IMG/VR virus record: IMGVR_UViG_3300037827_000284
Span: 1-39,820 of that record
Source of the DNA: a virus
Strand: one strand, 5' to 3'
DNA length: 39,820 nt
Of the stretch, positions 4,922 through 39,820 are shown piece after piece. The notes under the pieces were generated by a model that did not search any database, was not told the origin of the DNA, and saw nothing but the letters and a program-made list of their open reading frames with translations. The stretch's first letter is position 1; every line of letters begins with the position of its first letter. The position numbers were made by a program, and so were the translations under genes.

Positions 4922-5242
4922 GTGAGGCGGCGGGCACTTCCAAGGCGCACCGGGACCAGCATGACGCAGACGACCTACGGGAAGTGGCTGGCTTGCGACT
5001 ACGACAGGTTTATCGGCGTGATGGGCGACAGTGAACCAGAAGCTATCCTGAATCTCGCCGCCGCGCAAAAACGTGCCGATGCAATCATGGCGCGGATAGA
5101 CAAGCGAATGGACGAAGCGCCGGAAACTGACGTTGGACTTTTGCCGGATGAGTTAGCCGCCATTGCGGAAGCCGAGGCCGATCTCGCTCGCGGAGATTTT
5201 ACCACCTTCAAAGCCGAGCCAACGCTAGAGGAGCGCAAGTGA
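4922..5242 (+). CDS. Hypothetical protein with C-terminal tail shared with QueC
   Basis: A 106-aa (GTG start) or 93-aa (ATG 4961) protein. GTG 4922 is preceded by a purine-rich ribosome site. The middle (EAILNLAAAQKRADAIMARI) is helical. The last residues TFKAEPTLE are identical to the C-terminal tail of the QueC homologue, from a 27-bp identical DNA block that also carries the ribosome site of the next gene. Function unknown; sits directly before dpdA and overlaps it by one base. Confidence 0.6.
   Translation: MRRRALPRRTGTSMTQTTYGKWLACDYDRFIGVMGDSEPEAILNLAAAQKRADAIMARIDKRMDEAPETDVGLLPDELAAIAEAEADLARGDFTTFKAEPTLEERK
5203..5229 (+). repeat. 27-bp gene-end repeat, copy 1
   Basis: Identical to 6661-6687. 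It encodes the TFKAEPTLE tail of the gene 4922-5242 and leads into the ribosome site for dpdA. Confidence 0.9.
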
Positions 5243-5985
5243 TGAGGCGGTTCTTCCTCGGAACGCATCGCCCGCATTGGCTCGAAATAATGCAGGTCCC
5301 GCTGTTCGTGAGCCACCGACAGTTACGGCGCTATAAGAAGTTGCCGCGAGCTGCAGTTATTTGGGCGCTCGATTCCGGCGGCTTCACGGAGTTATCTATG
5401 AATGGCAAATGGGAAACATCCGTGGACGAATACGTCGAGGCGGTCGAACGATACAGCGAGATCGGAAACCTGCGATGGGCCGCGCCGATGGATTGGATGT
5501 GCGAACCTTTCATTCTCGGAAAGACGGGGCTGAGCATCCGCGAGCATCAGGAGCGAACGGTCGAGAACTACCTCGTCTTACGGAACCGCAGCCCGGTCTT
5601 TATCCCCGTTCTTCAAGGATGGGAGATCGGCGACTACCTTCGGTGCGTTGAGTTGTACGCCTCGGCTGGCGTGGATTTGAGAGACGAGCCACTAGTGGGG
5701 CTTGGAAGCGTCTGCCGTCGCCAGGCCGCGTCTGAAATAGGCGCTATTGTTAGAGAGTTACAACCCCTGGCGCTTCATGGCTTTGGCGTCAAGATGGACG
5801 GGATACGCCGCTACGGGCACCTGCTTCATTCGTGCGACTCGATGGCTTGGTCTTTCGGGGGTCGGCGGTCTGCGCCAATGCGTGGATGCCTTCACAAGCA
5901 TTGTGGAAACTGCCAAAAGTTTGCTCTGCGCTGGCGCGAAGTTGCGCTGGCTACACTACGACAAGGGGAGTTTATCTATGCGTGA
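5242..5985 (+). CDS. dpdA: DpdA-like DNA deazaguanine transglycosylase
   Basis: A 247-aa protein of the phage DpdA type, a paralogue of tRNA-guanine transglycosylase that swaps guanine in DNA for a 7-deazaguanine. Family hallmarks: MRRFFLGTHRPHWL at the N-terminus, WALDSGGFTEL (candidate catalytic D44), AAPMDWMCEP (D84), and a C-terminal metal-site candidate CLHKHCGNCQKFALRW. The ATG at 5242 overlaps the previous stop and has AGAGGAG upstream; a GTG one codon earlier is possible. It overlaps queC by eight bases, tying base synthesis and base insertion into one unit. Expected effect: phage DNA resistant to some host restriction enzymes. Confidence 0.85.
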   Translation: MRRFFLGTHRPHWLEIMQVPLFVSHRQLRRYKKLPRAAVIWALDSGGFTELSMNGKWETSVDEYVEAVERYSEIGNLRWAAPMDWMCEPFILGKTGLSIREHQERTVENYLVLRNRSPVFIPVLQGWEIGDYLRCVELYASAGVDLRDEPLVGLGSVCRRQAASEIGAIVRELQPLALHGFGVKMDGIRRYGHLLHSCDSMAWSFGGRRSAPMRGCLHKHCGNCQKFALRWREVALATLRQGEFIYA

Positions 5986-6703
5986 GTCTGCGCTCGTTCT
6001 TTTCTCAGGCGGCCAGGATTCCACGACTTGCGCGGCTTGGGCACTTCAAAGGTTTAATCGGGTGGATACGGTCGGTTTCGCTTACGGCCAAGAGAACGCA
6101 AACGAGTTACTACAGCGGGACACCATCTTTAATGCGTTGCGGCGTGACTTCCGCGAATGGCCTGGCAAACTCGGGAGCGATCGCATCGTGCGGCTCGACC
6201 TGTTCGGGCAACTCGTCAAAAGTTCGCTTCTTGGCGACGAAGGATTGCCGCCGCGAACCGATGGGCTCCCCGTTAGCTTCGTCCCCGGTCGGAACGTCGT
6301 TTTTCTAACCGTTGCGGCGATTATGGCGAAGGAAGGCGGCCACGATGCGCTGGTTGCCGGAATGTGCGAAACCGATTACGAGGGCTATCCCGATTGCAGG
6401 GACGACACGATTAAATCGTTGCAAGCCAGCCTAAACCTTGGGCTCCAGGCTCGAACATCTATCGAAACGCCGTTGATGTATCTCGACAAAGGCGACACTT
6501 GGAAACTAGCGGAGCAGATCGGCGGCAAGCGGCTCGTTAACCTAATCGTTAATCAAAGCTGCACCTGCTACGGCGGGGAGTTGACTTCGATGCAGCCCTG
6601 GGGGATGGGGTGCGGAAAGTGCGCCGCGTGCGAACGCCGCGCGAAAGGGTGGGCTAAGTACACCTTCAAAGCCGAGCCAACGCTAGAAGGAGAGGCATCG
6701 TGA
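5978..6703 (+). CDS. queC: 7-cyano-7-deazaguanine (preQ0) synthase
   Basis: A 241-aa, full-length QueC homologue. It converts 7-carboxy-7-deazaguanine to preQ0 using ATP and ammonia. Seen: the PP-loop FSGGQDSTT (9-17), FVPGRNVVFLT, CETDYEGYPDCRD, ETPLMYLDKGDTW, and zinc cysteines C197, C212, C215 and C218 in CTCY and CGKCAAC. All key residues look intact. The ATG at 5978 has an AAGGGGAG site. No FolE, QueD or QueE gene is present, so the substrate must come from the host. The extreme C-terminus (TFKAEPTLE) is a graft shared with gene 4922. Confidence 0.93.
   Translation: MRESALVLFSGGQDSTTCAAWALQRFNRVDTVGFAYGQENANELLQRDTIFNALRRDFREWPGKLGSDRIVRLDLFGQLVKSSLLGDEGLPPRTDGLPVSFVPGRNVVFLTVAAIMAKEGGHDALVAGMCETDYEGYPDCRDDTIKSLQASLNLGLQARTSIETPLMYLDKGDTWKLAEQIGGKRLVNLIVNQSCTCYGGELTSMQPWGMGCGKCAACERRAKGWAKYTFKAEPTLEGEAS
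6661..6687 (+). repeat. 27-bp gene-end repeat, copy 2
   Basis: Identical to 5203-5229, at the 3' end of queC, again followed by the ribosome site of the next gene. Confidence 0.9.
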
Positions 6704-6784
6704 GTGACGGCATCCACAACAATAAGCGGCTGCTAGAGCGCGGCGCAAGCCTCCCTAGCACCCCTACCAGCGCCAGCGAACCGA
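6700..6784 (+). repeat. 85-bp direct repeat, copy 1
   Basis: Matches 7015-7099 with two differences: the first base (GTG versus ATG start) and one silent change (AAT/AAC). It supplies the N-terminus of each module of the flanking ORF. Confidence 0.92.
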
Positions 6785-7335
6785 AAGAAGCGTTGGCGCA
6801 ACTCCGCGACGAGATGATTGCGTGGCGCGACCAATGGGCGCGGGTGGAGCATAACAACGAATCCTTCGCGCAGGCGCGGAGAAGGCTCGACTTGTGGCTT
6901 CGCCTTCTCTCGACCATCGAATCCCAAGTGATGCCGATCGCGCTTGGATGTGCGCGGGATGCGGCGGAAGATTCTGCGCGCACCACGTTTGCCAAGAATG
7001 CGGGGCTGTATTCCATGAGTGACGGCATCCACAACAACAAGCGGCTGCTAGAGCGCGGCGCAAGCCTCCCTAGCACCCCTACCAGCGCCAGCGAACCGAG
7101 CCTTGAGGAGCGGCTGTTAAAGCTGTGCGACCCGGATTGTCGGCCCTACGGCTACGACGAAACGATGTGGAAATCGGTCCAACGCGATTGGCGCAAAGCG
7201 GTGGCGGAGCTTGTACGGTTAAGGGGGCTCGAAACGAAGCTGCGCGCACTTTGCCATTCGTCAAGTTGGCGCGCTACCCCATACACCATCAAAGCAGACG
7301 AACTGCGCGCCATACTCTCGGAGGAAAAACCATGA
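6700..7335 (+). CDS. Tandem-module hypothetical protein with internal N-terminal duplication
   Basis: A 211-aa protein. Its first 28 residues (MSDGIHNNKRLLERG onward) recur at residues 106-133 with the same DNA, 83 of 85 bases. Module 1 (1-105) has a helical, Arg-rich core. Module 2 (106-211) has a CDPDCRPYGY motif and ends AILSEEKP. The second copy begins with its own ATG (7015), so a separate shorter product is possible. GTG start coupled to queC (GTGA). Looks like two paralogous genes fused in frame by recombination. Function unknown. Confidence 0.65.
   Translation: MSDGIHNNKRLLERGASLPSTPTSASEPKEALAQLRDEMIAWRDQWARVEHNNESFAQARRRLDLWLRLLSTIESQVMPIALGCARDAAEDSARTTFAKNAGLYSMSDGIHNNKRLLERGASLPSTPTSASEPSLEERLLKLCDPDCRPYGYDETMWKSVQRDWRKAVAELVRLRGLETKLRALCHSSSWRATPYTIKADELRAILSEEKP
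7015..7099 (+). repeat. 85-bp direct repeat, copy 2
   Basis: Second copy, 315 bp downstream of the first and in the same frame, which makes the ORF read through as a fusion. Confidence 0.92.
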
Positions 7336-7451: not shown

Positions 7452-7768
7452 AACTTGAGGAGGAGCTGACCGAAATGCGGTTGACCCCGCTTGGCGCAAT
7501 AGTTTACGGCGCTCTCGATGCGAAGGAAACCGCGTACATGAGCGCGCCGGTTGATGGCTGCCGGTTCGGTATTGTATTCTGGGGCGACAGCAAACCAACG
7601 CGCGAATCCTGGTTGCGCCTCATTGAGTATGCAAAACTCGCTGCCGACGTTGGGGAGCCAGACTGTAATCACGGTCCAGGAACAGGCGCGGACATTCACG
7701 GTTGCACTACTCCGCTCGCCTTAAGCAACGAGATCGACCGCCCCATACTCTCGGAGGACCCGAAATGA
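7448..7768 (+). CDS. Hypothetical protein
   Basis: A 106-aa protein. N-terminal helix MKLEEELTEMRLTP, a beta-rich centre (CRFGIVFWGD), then a CNHGPGTGADIHGC segment that could bind metal. It ends PILSEDPK, nearly the same tail as the gene ending at 7335. Coupled by ATGA at both ends. No family recognised. Confidence 0.6.
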   Translation: MKLEEELTEMRLTPLGAIVYGALDAKETAYMSAPVDGCRFGIVFWGDSKPTRESWLRLIEYAKLAADVGEPDCNHGPGTGADIHGCTTPLALSNEIDRPILSEDPK

Positions 7769-8858: not shown

Positions 8859-9169
8859 GTTTGTGGACGCTGGCTTTGGCCGAGATGGAAAAGAAACTGC
8901 TGGACGACGAGACGGCCACCCTCTCGCGGAAAGACTGCTTCACGCTTCTGCATCAGGTTACGAAACTTACGCGACCGTCGCCGTTAGACGACTTAGACCA
9001 CTGCGAGTTGGAGCTAGATATGATTGAACAGAATATGGGTAGCGGGTTCGCGACTCAGTTGAAGCGTTGCTTCGACGCAGCGGATGCGGTCCACGAACAC
9101 CGGCTAGGAATCGTCTTTCCAGAGTTCGGAGCCGCCGCGTTCGCGCACAAGACGAAAGGCCAGCAATGA
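8855..9169 (+). CDS. Hypothetical helical protein
   Basis: A 104-aa protein starting MSLWTLALAEMEKKLL (an internal Met at residue 11 is an alternative start). Acidic and helical, with the segment LDDLDHCELELDMIEQN. No motif that fixes a role. Coupled to the glycosyltransferase gene by an ATGA at 9166. Confidence 0.58.
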   Translation: MSLWTLALAEMEKKLLDDETATLSRKDCFTLLHQVTKLTRPSPLDDLDHCELELDMIEQNMGSGFATQLKRCFDAADAVHEHRLGIVFPEFGAAAFAHKTKGQQ

Positions 9170-9945
9170 GCGATTCCCCCCTATCCGCTACCGAGCTTGC
9201 CGAGATTGCAAAGCGGGACCTCGTGTGTGTGAGCTACGACCCGCAACTAGGTGACGCGCTGATGGCGCTTCCCGCGATTTGCGCGCTCGCCAAAAAACAC
9301 AGCCGAGTATTCCTCGAAATGCAGAACCGCGCCGTGTGTGAGATCGCCGATTTCCCCGAAAACGTGCATCTCAATCTTTGGGGGAACGACGCGCGCGACC
9401 CCGCCTTTGTGTTTCTCGGGATGGCCGCGGCGATAAACTACCGCTTCGAGCCGGGGATGCTCCACCCGACGCAATCGCTGATACGGATGGCGGGGTTGCC
9501 CGTGCCCGATGAAGTGCCACAGCCGCGCATTAAACGCTACTTCCGCCGGGTGGAGTCATTCGACGTTATCCTCGCGCCGTTTGCGAGCGCGCCGGAGCGC
9601 ACGCTGGACGTTCGGCAGGTTGAGGCGCTGGTTAAGAAACTGCAGGATGGGACGGATAAGCGCATCGCCATTCTCGGAGGCGGGACCAACCCGAACGTGC
9701 CGATAGCGGTTCCGCACCTCTACGACTACCCGCTCGATTACGCGGCGCAGCTTCTCCGTCAGTGCCGCGTGTTTGTTGGCGTGGATAGCTTCCCCAACCG
9801 CTTGGCGCACGCGGCCGGCTGCGAGCGCGCCTTCGTCCTCGATACCGGGGCTACCCCCGTTCAAACGCAAACATGGCCTGGCTGCACCGCGCTCCAGGCG
9901 TACAACGTCCCGCTGATAGCGAAGAAGGTACTGGAGGCGCTGTGA
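9166..9945 (+). CDS. Family 9 (heptosyltransferase-like) glycosyltransferase
   Basis: A 259-aa protein. The N-terminal CVSYDPQLGDALMALPAICA matches the GD-x-hh-x-x-P start of GT9 enzymes. The C-terminal domain has RIAILGGGTN and CRVFVGVDSFPNRLAHAAG, the GT9 donor-site motif (usually VGxDSGxxHxAAA) with Phe-Pro-Asn in place of the normal Gly-Pro-Met/His, so activity is not assured. It is shorter than bacterial heptosyltransferases (about 320-350 aa). Candidate targets are host LPS, virion proteins or modified bases; context does not choose. Start at ATGA overlap. Confidence 0.72.
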   Translation: MSDSPLSATELAEIAKRDLVCVSYDPQLGDALMALPAICALAKKHSRVFLEMQNRAVCEIADFPENVHLNLWGNDARDPAFVFLGMAAAINYRFEPGMLHPTQSLIRMAGLPVPDEVPQPRIKRYFRRVESFDVILAPFASAPERTLDVRQVEALVKKLQDGTDKRIAILGGGTNPNVPIAVPHLYDYPLDYAAQLLRQCRVFVGVDSFPNRLAHAAGCERAFVLDTGATPVQTQTWPGCTALQAYNVPLIAKKVLEAL

Positions 9946-28344: not shown

Positions 28345-30254
28345 TGCTGCGCCTGCTGTCCAGTGGGCGGCGGCTTCGCCTTAGGTAGCTGCTGCCTCGT
28401 GCGCGGCGGCGGCGGCTGCACCTGCGGCGGCATCTCCATCATCCGCTCCATTATCGACGGCCAATCCTCAATCTTAAGCGCCTTCCAGGTCGAAACCTTA
28501 TCGCGCAGCCCTTGCTGGAATTCTTCGATGACGCGCGCGCGCACGGCGCTCTCACTCCATGCAAGACTCGACCCGGTAAGCACGCGATAGTTGAACGACC
28601 CCTGAAGCGACCCGGGCGTAATCCGCTGGTAGGTGATGTTCCCGGTCAGGTTCTCCACCTTCACCGCGTGGCGCTCGTCGTAGTGCTTCTGCATCATCTG
28701 CCCAACGATTTCGATGAGGTCCTCGATCGACCGCTCCATCCGCTGCGTGCATTTCACGATGCGCGAGCCGCCGATTTCCGCCAGCATATCGTACCCAGCC
28801 GCGCTGTCCACCCGGCCGGCCGCCTCGCCCTGCATAATGCCCGTCGCGCCGATCACCTTCTCCATGAGGCCGATAATGGCGTTAAGCCACGCGAACCACG
28901 CTTGGGAGATTTCCGCGACCTGTAGCGATTCGAGCGTCCCCTTCTCGCCGCCGCGCAGAATCTCGCCCGGGTTGATATTCATGTTGTTCCGGTCGATCAA
29001 ACTCCCCGTCCACGCGATGTAAGCGCGGTAGGCCGAAAAGCGCAGGTTGTCCAGCATCGTAGAGATGCTGACGTTGAACGCGCCCTGAAGCGTTTCCAAC
29101 TCTAGCAGCGACCCCTTCACCCAATAGCCTTCGAGCGGTTCGCCGTCGTGAAAGTCGGCGTAGGGAAGCTCGTAGTCCCACGGGTCGTCCTGAATGACTT
29201 TGGCATCCGGGAGCATCATGACCAGCTTGCGCCACCACGGATACAGACGCTCCTGCACGTCCTCGTACACGTCCTCCATGACGAGCTCGTACATCGGAAT
29301 AGTGAACGGCGTACCGTCCATCGCTTGGTGCTGCGTTTCCCCCGCGTGGTTGAACTGCGGCATCCCGTCGTCGTCGGTCTTCACTTTCTGAATCGTGCGC
29401 CCGTACTTGTCTTTTTTCTTGCGCGGCACCTTAACCATCGTGTAGTCTTTGATTTGCAACTCCACTAACTGCACGAGGTCGTTAGACGGCGATACGCCCG
29501 GCACGAATCCAGTGTAGGAAAGCAGCGTCGGCGTGCCGTTCATAATCGCGGTGGTTGGGAAGTCGAACGCCAGCTTCTGCCACGGGTCGCGCAACGGTGA
29601 ACCCTGCCCGCTTGCGTTAGCCGATGGCCCCTGCTGCGACGTAGACGGCGCATCTTCCAACTTCTTGGCGGCTTTCGGGTACAGCATCATCGCTCGCGCG
29701 CGCGGCATTTGCACGCGGTGACCGGAGAACTGCCCCTTGCGCTGGTCCTTCACGCGCGGGTCTACGATGCGGCGCCAACCGGGGATGGCTTCAACCGCAA
29801 TATCCCCCGCGCCGTCGTAGAGCGATGGGTCCCAAAACGCGTGAAGCGAAGCCGATCGCGTGCAGCACGCCAGCGTTTCGGCGTTCTCCACGAGCGCCTG
29901 AAGGTTGCCGCGCTCCCACCATTGCATGATGCACGACCGCATCAGCCGCGCGGATTCCTCGTCCCCGACATCGTTGTTCTCGATGACTGGAATGGGCTGC
30001 TGCTTGGTCATAATCGAGATTTTATGGTCGATGATGGCCGATGCGACGTTTACCGTAAGCGCCGCGCGCTTATCGGAAACCTGGACGTTCCAATGCCGCG
30101 AGTAGCGGAGGTTGCCGCCGATGCGGTCGCTCTTGCGCCGCGCCTCCTCGTGCTTGTCGCTCATCGAAACGTAGGACAGTAGGCGCTTCACCATCCGAAC
30201 TTCAGGGTCGGCGTCTTTGCTCAGCGGTTGCGAAAGCGTGGGCGAGTTAGCCAA
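28341..30254 (-). CDS. Portal protein
   Basis: A 637-aa protein with the features of short-tailed-phage portals: N-terminal KHEEARRKSDRIGGNLRYSR, NVASAIIDHKISIMTKQQP, a wing domain, FNVSISTMLDNLRFSAYRAY, ASGI-like GIMQGEAAGRVDSAAGYDML, and a C-terminal QVQPPPPRTRQQLPK tail. Forms the dodecameric ring at the packaging vertex. Start is TTG (30254), overlapping the glycosyltransferase stop by eight bases, with GGAAGAA upstream. Confidence 0.85.
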   Translation of the reverse strand: MANSPTLSQPLSKDADPEVRMVKRLLSYVSMSDKHEEARRKSDRIGGNLRYSRHWNVQVSDKRAALTVNVASAIIDHKISIMTKQQPIPVIENNDVGDEESARLMRSCIMQWWERGNLQALVENAETLACCTRSASLHAFWDPSLYDGAGDIAVEAIPGWRRIVDPRVKDQRKGQFSGHRVQMPRARAMMLYPKAAKKLEDAPSTSQQGPSANASGQGSPLRDPWQKLAFDFPTTAIMNGTPTLLSYTGFVPGVSPSNDLVQLVELQIKDYTMVKVPRKKKDKYGRTIQKVKTDDDGMPQFNHAGETQHQAMDGTPFTIPMYELVMEDVYEDVQERLYPWWRKLVMMLPDAKVIQDDPWDYELPYADFHDGEPLEGYWVKGSLLELETLQGAFNVSISTMLDNLRFSAYRAYIAWTGSLIDRNNMNINPGEILRGGEKGTLESLQVAEISQAWFAWLNAIIGLMEKVIGATGIMQGEAAGRVDSAAGYDMLAEIGGSRIVKCTQRMERSIEDLIEIVGQMMQKHYDERHAVKVENLTGNITYQRITPGSLQGSFNYRVLTGSSLAWSESAVRARVIEEFQQGLRDKVSTWKALKIEDWPSIMERMMEMPPQVQPPPPRTRQQLPKAKPPPTGQQAQQ

Positions 30255-31344
30255 TCGCTTCTTCCAGGATGGCGCGGGATTGCGCGTCGTCGTAGTTTCC
30301 GGCCGGGAGCGTTACCGTTTTTTCGCCGAGCCACGCGGCCTCCCACTGCGGGAGAATCGTGGCGTCAGTCCATTTCTCGCGCAGATGTTCAAGTCCCACG
30401 CTCGCCATATTACGGCGGTTCTCCTCGTTATTTATCATCGCTGAAATCGCCATAAACCATTCGCTATGCGTGCTCGCTATCATCGTCGGCCACGAAGCAT
30501 AGGCACCATACGCGCTCGCCACAACCGGCACGCCATTCATCCCGTACTCGAAGAAGCGAATGTTACTCTTGCACGAGTTGAAGATGCTCGGCTCTAGCGG
30601 CGCTAGACCGATGTCGAGGTCCAACTCGCCGATCTCGCGATAGTAGCGGTACATAAACTGCGCGAGGTAGCCGTCTTTCTGCGGGTCGAACCACGTTCCG
30701 ACGTGATGCTCCACGCGGTGCTTATCGAAACCCGCCGGCAAGACGAACGGCTGTCCCATCGACACGAGCTTCACTTGCGGATACTTCGCGCAAATCTCAA
30801 CGAGCACGTCTTTGATACAAGCGATGTCGAGCAAGTGCGTGTACGAGCCGACGTACCCGATGCGTATTTCGCCCTCGCGCTTGGGTTTGCCGGTAATCTC
30901 TTTCGGCGCGACGGCCTCGACGTGTTCGCTCCACGCGAAGTTATGGCAGACCGCCAACTCGCGGCCCGTCTTCTCGCGGTAGTAGTCGGCTAGCGGTTGC
31001 GTCGAGCAGGAAAGAACGTCGGCTTCGACGCACGCCTTGTCGAAAATCGGGAGTGCGTCGGTATGCTGGAACGGCTCGTGGCACATCGACCACGGCGGAA
31101 TCTCGTGGAAGCAGTCGTCAAAATCGACGATGACGCGCTTGCCCATCGCCTTCGCCTGCCGCATAAACGTGATGCCTTCTTTGGACGATACGCGCGGAAA
31201 CACGATGGCATCGCCGTCGAATCGCAGCTTGTCGATTACGAAGTCTATCTCGATGCCGAGCTTTTTGTGGAGCGCAATGAGCGGCGCAGCAATGCGATAC
31301 CACGAGCAGCCGCCCCACTCGCCGATTGTGCCTAGTATCTTCAT
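30247..31344 (-). CDS. GT4-like glycosyltransferase
   Basis: A 365-aa GT-B fold protein: N-terminal MKILGTIGEWGGCSWYRIAA, linker RVIVDFDDCFHEIP, second domain IRIGYVGSYTHLLDI, and the C-terminal motif SNIRFFEYGMNGVPVVAS (the E-x7-E-like region of GT4 enzymes, here F-F-E-Y-G-x-x-G-V-P-V-V-A). Transfers a sugar from an NDP donor. It sits between the portal and zinc-ribbon genes, so a late role, such as virion glycosylation, is possible. ATGA coupling upstream. Confidence 0.78.
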   Translation of the reverse strand: MKILGTIGEWGGCSWYRIAAPLIALHKKLGIEIDFVIDKLRFDGDAIVFPRVSSKEGITFMRQAKAMGKRVIVDFDDCFHEIPPWSMCHEPFQHTDALPIFDKACVEADVLSCSTQPLADYYREKTGRELAVCHNFAWSEHVEAVAPKEITGKPKREGEIRIGYVGSYTHLLDIACIKDVLVEICAKYPQVKLVSMGQPFVLPAGFDKHRVEHHVGTWFDPQKDGYLAQFMYRYYREIGELDLDIGLAPLEPSIFNSCKSNIRFFEYGMNGVPVVASAYGAYASWPTMIASTHSEWFMAISAMINNEENRRNMASVGLEHLREKWTDATILPQWEAAWLGEKTVTLPAGNYDDAQSRAILEEAIG

Positions 31345-39680: not shown

Positions 39681-39733
39681 AGCCGTAGCCGGAGCCGGAG
39701 CCGGAGCCGTCGCCGTAGCCGTCGCCGTAGCCG
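39681..39733. repeat. Hexanucleotide GCCGNN tandem repeat, right end
   Basis: About nine units of the same kind as positions 1-160 (GCCGTA, GCCGGA, GCCGTC). Ends at the first copy of GCCGCAATGAGGCC. Confidence 0.88.
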
Positions 39734-39820
39734 GCCGCAATGAGGCCCGGCGATGAACGCCGGGATCACCTGATCTCGTCCGTTACCACTAGGCGCGTCG
39801 CACGCAGCCGCAATGAGGCC
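39734..39820. repeat. 73-bp-spaced direct repeat and hairpin at the contig end
   Basis: GCCGCAATGAGGCC occurs at 39734-39747 and again at 39807-39820, the last bases. Between them lies CCCGGCG/CGCCGGG (39746-39764, loop ATGAA). The placement between two hexamer tracts suggests a repeat-driven assembly end or a terminal repeat. Confidence 0.8.

Follow-up and report, generated by a model that had tools for sequence, protein, structure and literature searches.

The described phage DNA 7-deazaguanine systems that most resemble the locus reported here fall into two of the groups of Hutinet. In group 2 (CAjan, Rosebush), DpdA and QueC are clustered, and FolE, QueD and QueE are also encoded; group 3 phages (Orion, 7-11) have DpdA with no preQ0 pathway gene and rely on their host for most pathway steps (PMC6884629). 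When expressed in E. coli, dpdA of phage 9g alone gave 0.03–0.3% dPreQ0, and 9g dpdA together with gat-queC gave 9–18% dG+ using host QueD and QueE. A queC deletion left this modification in place, and a queD deletion abolished the restriction resistance (PMC6884629), so that DpdA can evidently be supplied from host CDG by a phage QueC-type enzyme. For Orion, which has only DpdA and grows in a host without preQ0 synthesis, no deazaguanine was found in the DNA (PMC6884629). Two further systems are related through QueC. These are the Dpd restriction-modification islands, which in their alphaproteobacterial type hold dpdA, dpdB, queE, queD and queC, and Cap9 of type IV CBASS (9nto), which shares the QueC fold, does only the first activation-and-amide step and couples CDG to a protein amine, with no preQ0 made (PMC13329287).

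On the plus strand of the 39,820-base window (the whole stretch of DNA that was analysed), two frames with ATG starts encode a predicted DNA guanine/7-deazaguanine exchange enzyme of the TGT superfamily, from the "singleton" DpdA clade (dpdA, 5242–5985, 247 amino acids), and a member of the 7-cyano-7-deazaguanine synthase family (queC, 5978–6703, 241 amino acids). The start of queC lies inside the end of dpdA, with the eight bases ATGCGTGA (5978–5985, plus strand) shared between them, exactly as the sequence-only reading had described. A GGGGAG Shine–Dalgarno sequence lies upstream of the overlap, and this arrangement makes translational coupling of the two genes probable. The base composition of the cassette showed no difference from that of the neighbouring early genes and no foreign signature. 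The cassette is best read as a moron-like two-gene unit, a variant within known phage DNA 7-deazaguanine modification.

Identification of the 247-residue protein as DpdA, proposed from the letters alone together with a profile search and a structural comparison with TGT and DpdA as suitable checks, was upheld by profile, fold and motifs. The protein matched PF23859 (4.3e-91, 305 bits against a curated cutoff of 27) and phrog_1279 (1.2e-97). A sequence search of the PDB gave no true match, and fold comparison was therefore used, with AlphaFold models of DpdA and QueC built from alignments of relatives. For the DpdA model (pLDDT 94.9), the top PDB match was 7ui4, the crystal structure of a DpdA that is a DNA preQ0 insertase (E 1.3e-7), and TGTs came next. 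Across 53 relatives, D44, D84, Q125, G153, G155 and D199 showed no variation, and C221/C224 were nearly invariant. The invariant positions presumably correspond to the substrate-binding and nucleophile positions of TGT, and D199 is likely to be the nucleophile, judging from fold and invariance.

DpdA is 55–58% identical to the singleton DpdAs of mycobacteriophages Struggle and DarthP, and the mycobacteriophage singletons of group 3 belong to the same DpdA clade. For comparisons, Struggle (Pegunavirus), which we take to be of the same group as mycobacteriophage Orion, stood in for Orion, and Arbiter (Rosebushvirus) for Rosebush. The DpdA of 7-11 is of a different subfamily, and so is that of group 2, the Arbiter/Rosebushvirus DpdA being unmatched by the singleton-clade profile. 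We know of no member of the singleton clade that has been shown to modify DNA. The phage also departs from group 3 in adding a QueC of its own.

The QueC identity was likewise borne out by profile, fold and motifs. The protein matched PF06508 (5.4e-59) and scored 180.1 bits with the NCBI equivalog TIGR00364, above the cutoff of 150.3; its model (pLDDT 92.3) had QueC 3bl5 as the best solved fold (E 6.6e-19), with Cap9 far behind. It had been described as complete, which is right for the domain but not for the motif histidine, replaced by N40, nor for the last 12 or so residues, which come from a repeated linker. Intact are SGGQDS, Y36, Q38, E43, VPGRN, YPDC, K171, Y198 and the zinc cysteines, spaced Cx14CxxCxxC and not Cx8. 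The features of canonical QueC (cluster 1 of PMC13329287) are accordingly present (SGGxDS, VPxRN, YPDC, a conserved lysine, zinc cysteines and the tyrosine in TCY), and all residues of canonical QueC supported by mutagenesis are kept (PMC13329287). Membership in Cap9/QatC was ruled out by score and length: the QatC profile gave 14.8 bits against a cutoff of 280, and the phage protein, in contrast to Cap9, is a full-length QueC of 241 amino acids above the equivalog cutoff. No CD-NTase partner was recognised, nor were other QatC/Cap9 partner genes near queC.

Taken together, it is likely that phage QueC and DpdA turn host CDG into preQ0 (or ADG), which is exchanged into the phage DNA against restriction. 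CDG would come from the host, a plausible proposal already made in the sequence-only reading; that reading had remarked on neither N40, the kinship of QueC with those of Dpd islands nor the repeat that flanks the cassette. From its family and motifs, QueC would activate CDG with ATP and amidate it to ADG, and would probably then dehydrate ADG to preQ0, a step made less certain by N40. DpdA would swap selected guanines in phage DNA for the modified base by a TGT-type mechanism, and DNA modified in this way would withstand restriction by the host, a Dpd system of the host perhaps included; restriction protection is proposed here by analogy. The 9g pair, likewise a QueC-type enzyme and a DpdA working on host CDG, suffices in E. 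coli (PMC6884629), but phage QueC differs in having no glutamine amidotransferase domain, so that a gat-QueC identity is ruled out and no archaeosine is expected. Counted against the capture of host CDG were the Orion result, N40 and the occurrence of the pair in a single phage with no close relative for a selection test.

The YxQxHxxE motif reads YGQENANE in phage QueC, with N40 at a position that is His in 86 of 86 other motif-bearing QueC loci of our phage-centred collection, and in all 11 that were read of the 12 cellular-type QueCs with which it groups. A single base error (CAC to AAC) could produce N40 but not the adjacent E39, where Arg is usual. Cap9 also lacks this His (PMC13329287), as alignment to its structure 9nto shows at the same position. 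N40 may affect the second step, from ADG to preQ0. Because the motif His is missing, preQ0 cannot be called with confidence as the product, and QueC may also stop at the amide ADG. An explanation in which QueC stops at, or mainly releases, ADG, which DpdA then inserts to give dADG without a DpdC-type hydrolase, makes dADG the main alternative product; it accords with N40, with the first-step enzyme Cap9, with the long QueC branch described below and with the finding of dADG in the DpdA-only phages MED16 and 7-11 (PMC8306585, PMC6884629). All other tested QueC motif positions are intact, however, and one residue in one assembly is weak evidence for ADG, and we consider this explanation unlikely.

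Whichever base is made from host CDG, the QueC itself appears to be of cellular type. The nearest QueCs by identity (51–55%) were those of alphaproteobacterial plasmids, QueCs of Dpd islands among them, and two IMG/VR contigs carry a QueC 53% identical to it. In a maximum-likelihood tree, phage QueC grouped with twelve cellular-type QueCs (support 100/99), beside Bradyrhizobium 41S5 and Microvirga (90/90) and, unlike the QueCs of group 2, outside the main phage QueC clade; an origin from phage preQ0 operons is unsupported by this tree. Its terminal branch measured 1.0, and those of other clade members at most 0.42. Dpd clusters with a long DpdA and DpdB (DGQHR) hold 6 of the 12 clade QueCs (L005, L090, L317, L326, L327 and Azospirillum, L320/L334), and most of the others are in queE-queD-queC triads, of which one retains a DpdB remnant. 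L326, L327 and L334 are Dpd clusters on alphaproteobacterial plasmids; each has DpdA, DpdB, queE, queC and a VUT transporter, and two of them also have queD.

With half of the clade in such clusters, a Dpd island is a likely, though not proven, donor. The source of QueC would be a cellular lineage of Alphaproteobacteria in which Dpd islands abound; the tree shows the lineage, and the donor context is deduced from it. The phage is not itself a Dpd island, as it has neither DpdB nor the long bacterial DpdA, nor QueD/QueE. A bolder account, in which the phage took QueC from a Dpd anti-phage island, remodelled it, as the lost motif His and the long branch would reflect, and with DpdA writes the very amide or nitrile deazaguanine that serves the host Dpd system as its self mark, seems to us improbable. 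If true, host CDG from the Dpd island would disguise the phage, and a QueC stopping at ADG would give dADG in one step.

The absence of FolE, QueD and QueE, claimed from the sequence alone, held throughout the 39,820-base record. Family profiles for GTP cyclohydrolase I (FolE), PTPS (QueD), radical SAM (QueE) and Vut_1 (YhhQ) found no match while controls worked, and nothing was found with FolE, QueD, QueE and YhhQ profiles built for this analysis. These absences apply to the record, a linear IMG/VR contig that may not be the complete genome, and so does the difference from group 2 in FolE, QueD and QueE. The whole preQ0 pathway could in principle be carried by the phage, making the "minimal" cassette an artefact of assembly, and in 77 of 80 viral QueC loci one or more of FolE, QueD and QueE do lie within 8 kb, accompanied in most cases by a CAjan-type DpdA. 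In nearly all of those loci, however, the pathway genes are close to queC, whereas here kilobases were sequenced on both sides without them. Repeats of a single GCCGTA/GCCGGA type also occupy the two contig ends (GCCGTA/GCCGGA/GCCGTC hexamer arrays, 1–163 and 39690–39741). From the left end the early genes are read rightward, from the right end the late genes leftward, and the contig has genes for terminase, portal, major head protein and amidase as well as an exonuclease-like gene. Together these suggest a nearly complete genome, as expected of one broken at the repeat, and an incomplete contig is thus quite an improbable explanation of the two-gene cassette. By terminase and capsid comparison the phage is an orphan tailed phage. 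A glycosyltransferase-like gene (30247–31344, minus strand, phrog_7162 1.8e-30) lies between late genes, and a gene at 9160–9945 (plus strand) is GT9/heptosyltransferase-like by eye; further DNA or surface modification by these is possible.

A scan of IMG/VR gave 398 relatives of phage DpdA. Among the best 80 of these viral loci, a YhhQ-type gene was present in 24 and QueC beside DpdA in one, L081 (8950–10768), which has the order QueC-QueD-DpdA in a 109-kb record without a FolE or radical SAM match; in L088 a full pathway is present separately, at another site. One more locus, L179 (8207–10798), came from a second scan and has QueE-QueD-QueC-DpdA with a DpdA of the same clade. The IMG/VR scan with QueC alone gave no match. 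In bacterial genomes, chiefly those of Actinomycetes, 12 of the best 80 DpdA loci, of which some may be prophages, had a YhhQ-type gene and none had QueC. Most relatives in the singleton DpdA clade thus stand alone or adjoin a YhhQ-type transporter, and the exact DpdA and QueC pair was seen in this phage only, among the loci examined. The term "minimal" has to be seen in this setting, as singleton DpdAs mostly occur without any QueC, and linkage to it is very rare. YhhQ-type (Vut_1) genes adjoin singleton-clade DpdA repeatedly (L002, L004, L011, L023, L072 and others), suggesting import of a preQ0/queuine-type base in place of synthesis; this phage, in contrast to those loci, has no transporter. 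Phage QueC shares only 37% identity with the QueC of L081 and 30% with that of L179, and the three QueC-linked DpdAs did not cluster in the DpdA tree, which is of low resolution. These results point to separate acquisitions, and QueC has probably been recruited at least three times in the singleton DpdA clade, which argues that its pairing with DpdA is functional.

The cassette is flanked by two exact copies of a 27-bp direct repeat, CACCTTCAAAGCCGAGCCAACGCTAGA, on the plus strand. The left copy (5203–5229) closes the upstream gene (..FKAEPTLE) and lies immediately ahead of the Shine–Dalgarno sequence of dpdA; the right copy (6661–6687) lies in the C-terminal QueC tail (..TFKAEPTLE), immediately ahead of that of the next gene. 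Across 20 shuffled sequences, the longest exact repeat measured 14–17 bp. Since the repeat also ends the gene before dpdA, the QueC tail TFKAEPTLE is, by sequence, linker-derived. The simplest reading is that the cassette was inserted or exchanged at repeated linkers; its point of entry into the early operon would have been a linker next to a ribosome-binding site, now the flanking 27-bp repeat. No relative with an empty cassette site was found, TerL having distant matches only and the major capsid protein being unmatched among 50,697 phage records. Nearby, an 84-bp direct repeat (6701–6784 and 7016–7099) duplicates the start of gene 6700–7335 (MSDGIHNNKRLLERGASLPSTPTSASEP) within that gene, and a 20-bp repeat with one mismatch (7306–7325 and 7739–7758) comprises a gene end and a CTCGGAGGA ribosome-binding site, resembling the 27-bp repeat.

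Such a setting, with the long QueC branch and N40, would also fit a pair that is inactive baggage on a mobile linker. Both frames are nevertheless open and coupled, with good ribosome-binding sites, and the invariant residues of DpdA and most of those of QueC are kept, which leaves inactivity very unlikely. Least likely of all is a service to tRNA, with QueC raising host queuosine and the TGT-like protein acting on tRNA, which agrees with the TGT superfamily fold of DpdA and with the annotation of such proteins in phage records as "queuine tRNA-ribosyltransferase", but not with a best fold match to a DNA enzyme, a Pfam family that is DpdA or a length of 247 amino acids against 348–383 in the matched solved TGT chains.

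Phages and genomes of actinobacteria commonly carry a DpdA of the singleton clade, which to our knowledge has no measured DNA product. Since the cassette is a two-gene unit in nature and brings its own QueC, singleton DpdA activity becomes testable in any CDG-making laboratory strain. Should QueC be of Dpd-island origin and end its reaction at ADG, the DNA modification of this phage would be linked to bacterial 7-deazaguanine defence, and a function would be given to the motif His of QueC.
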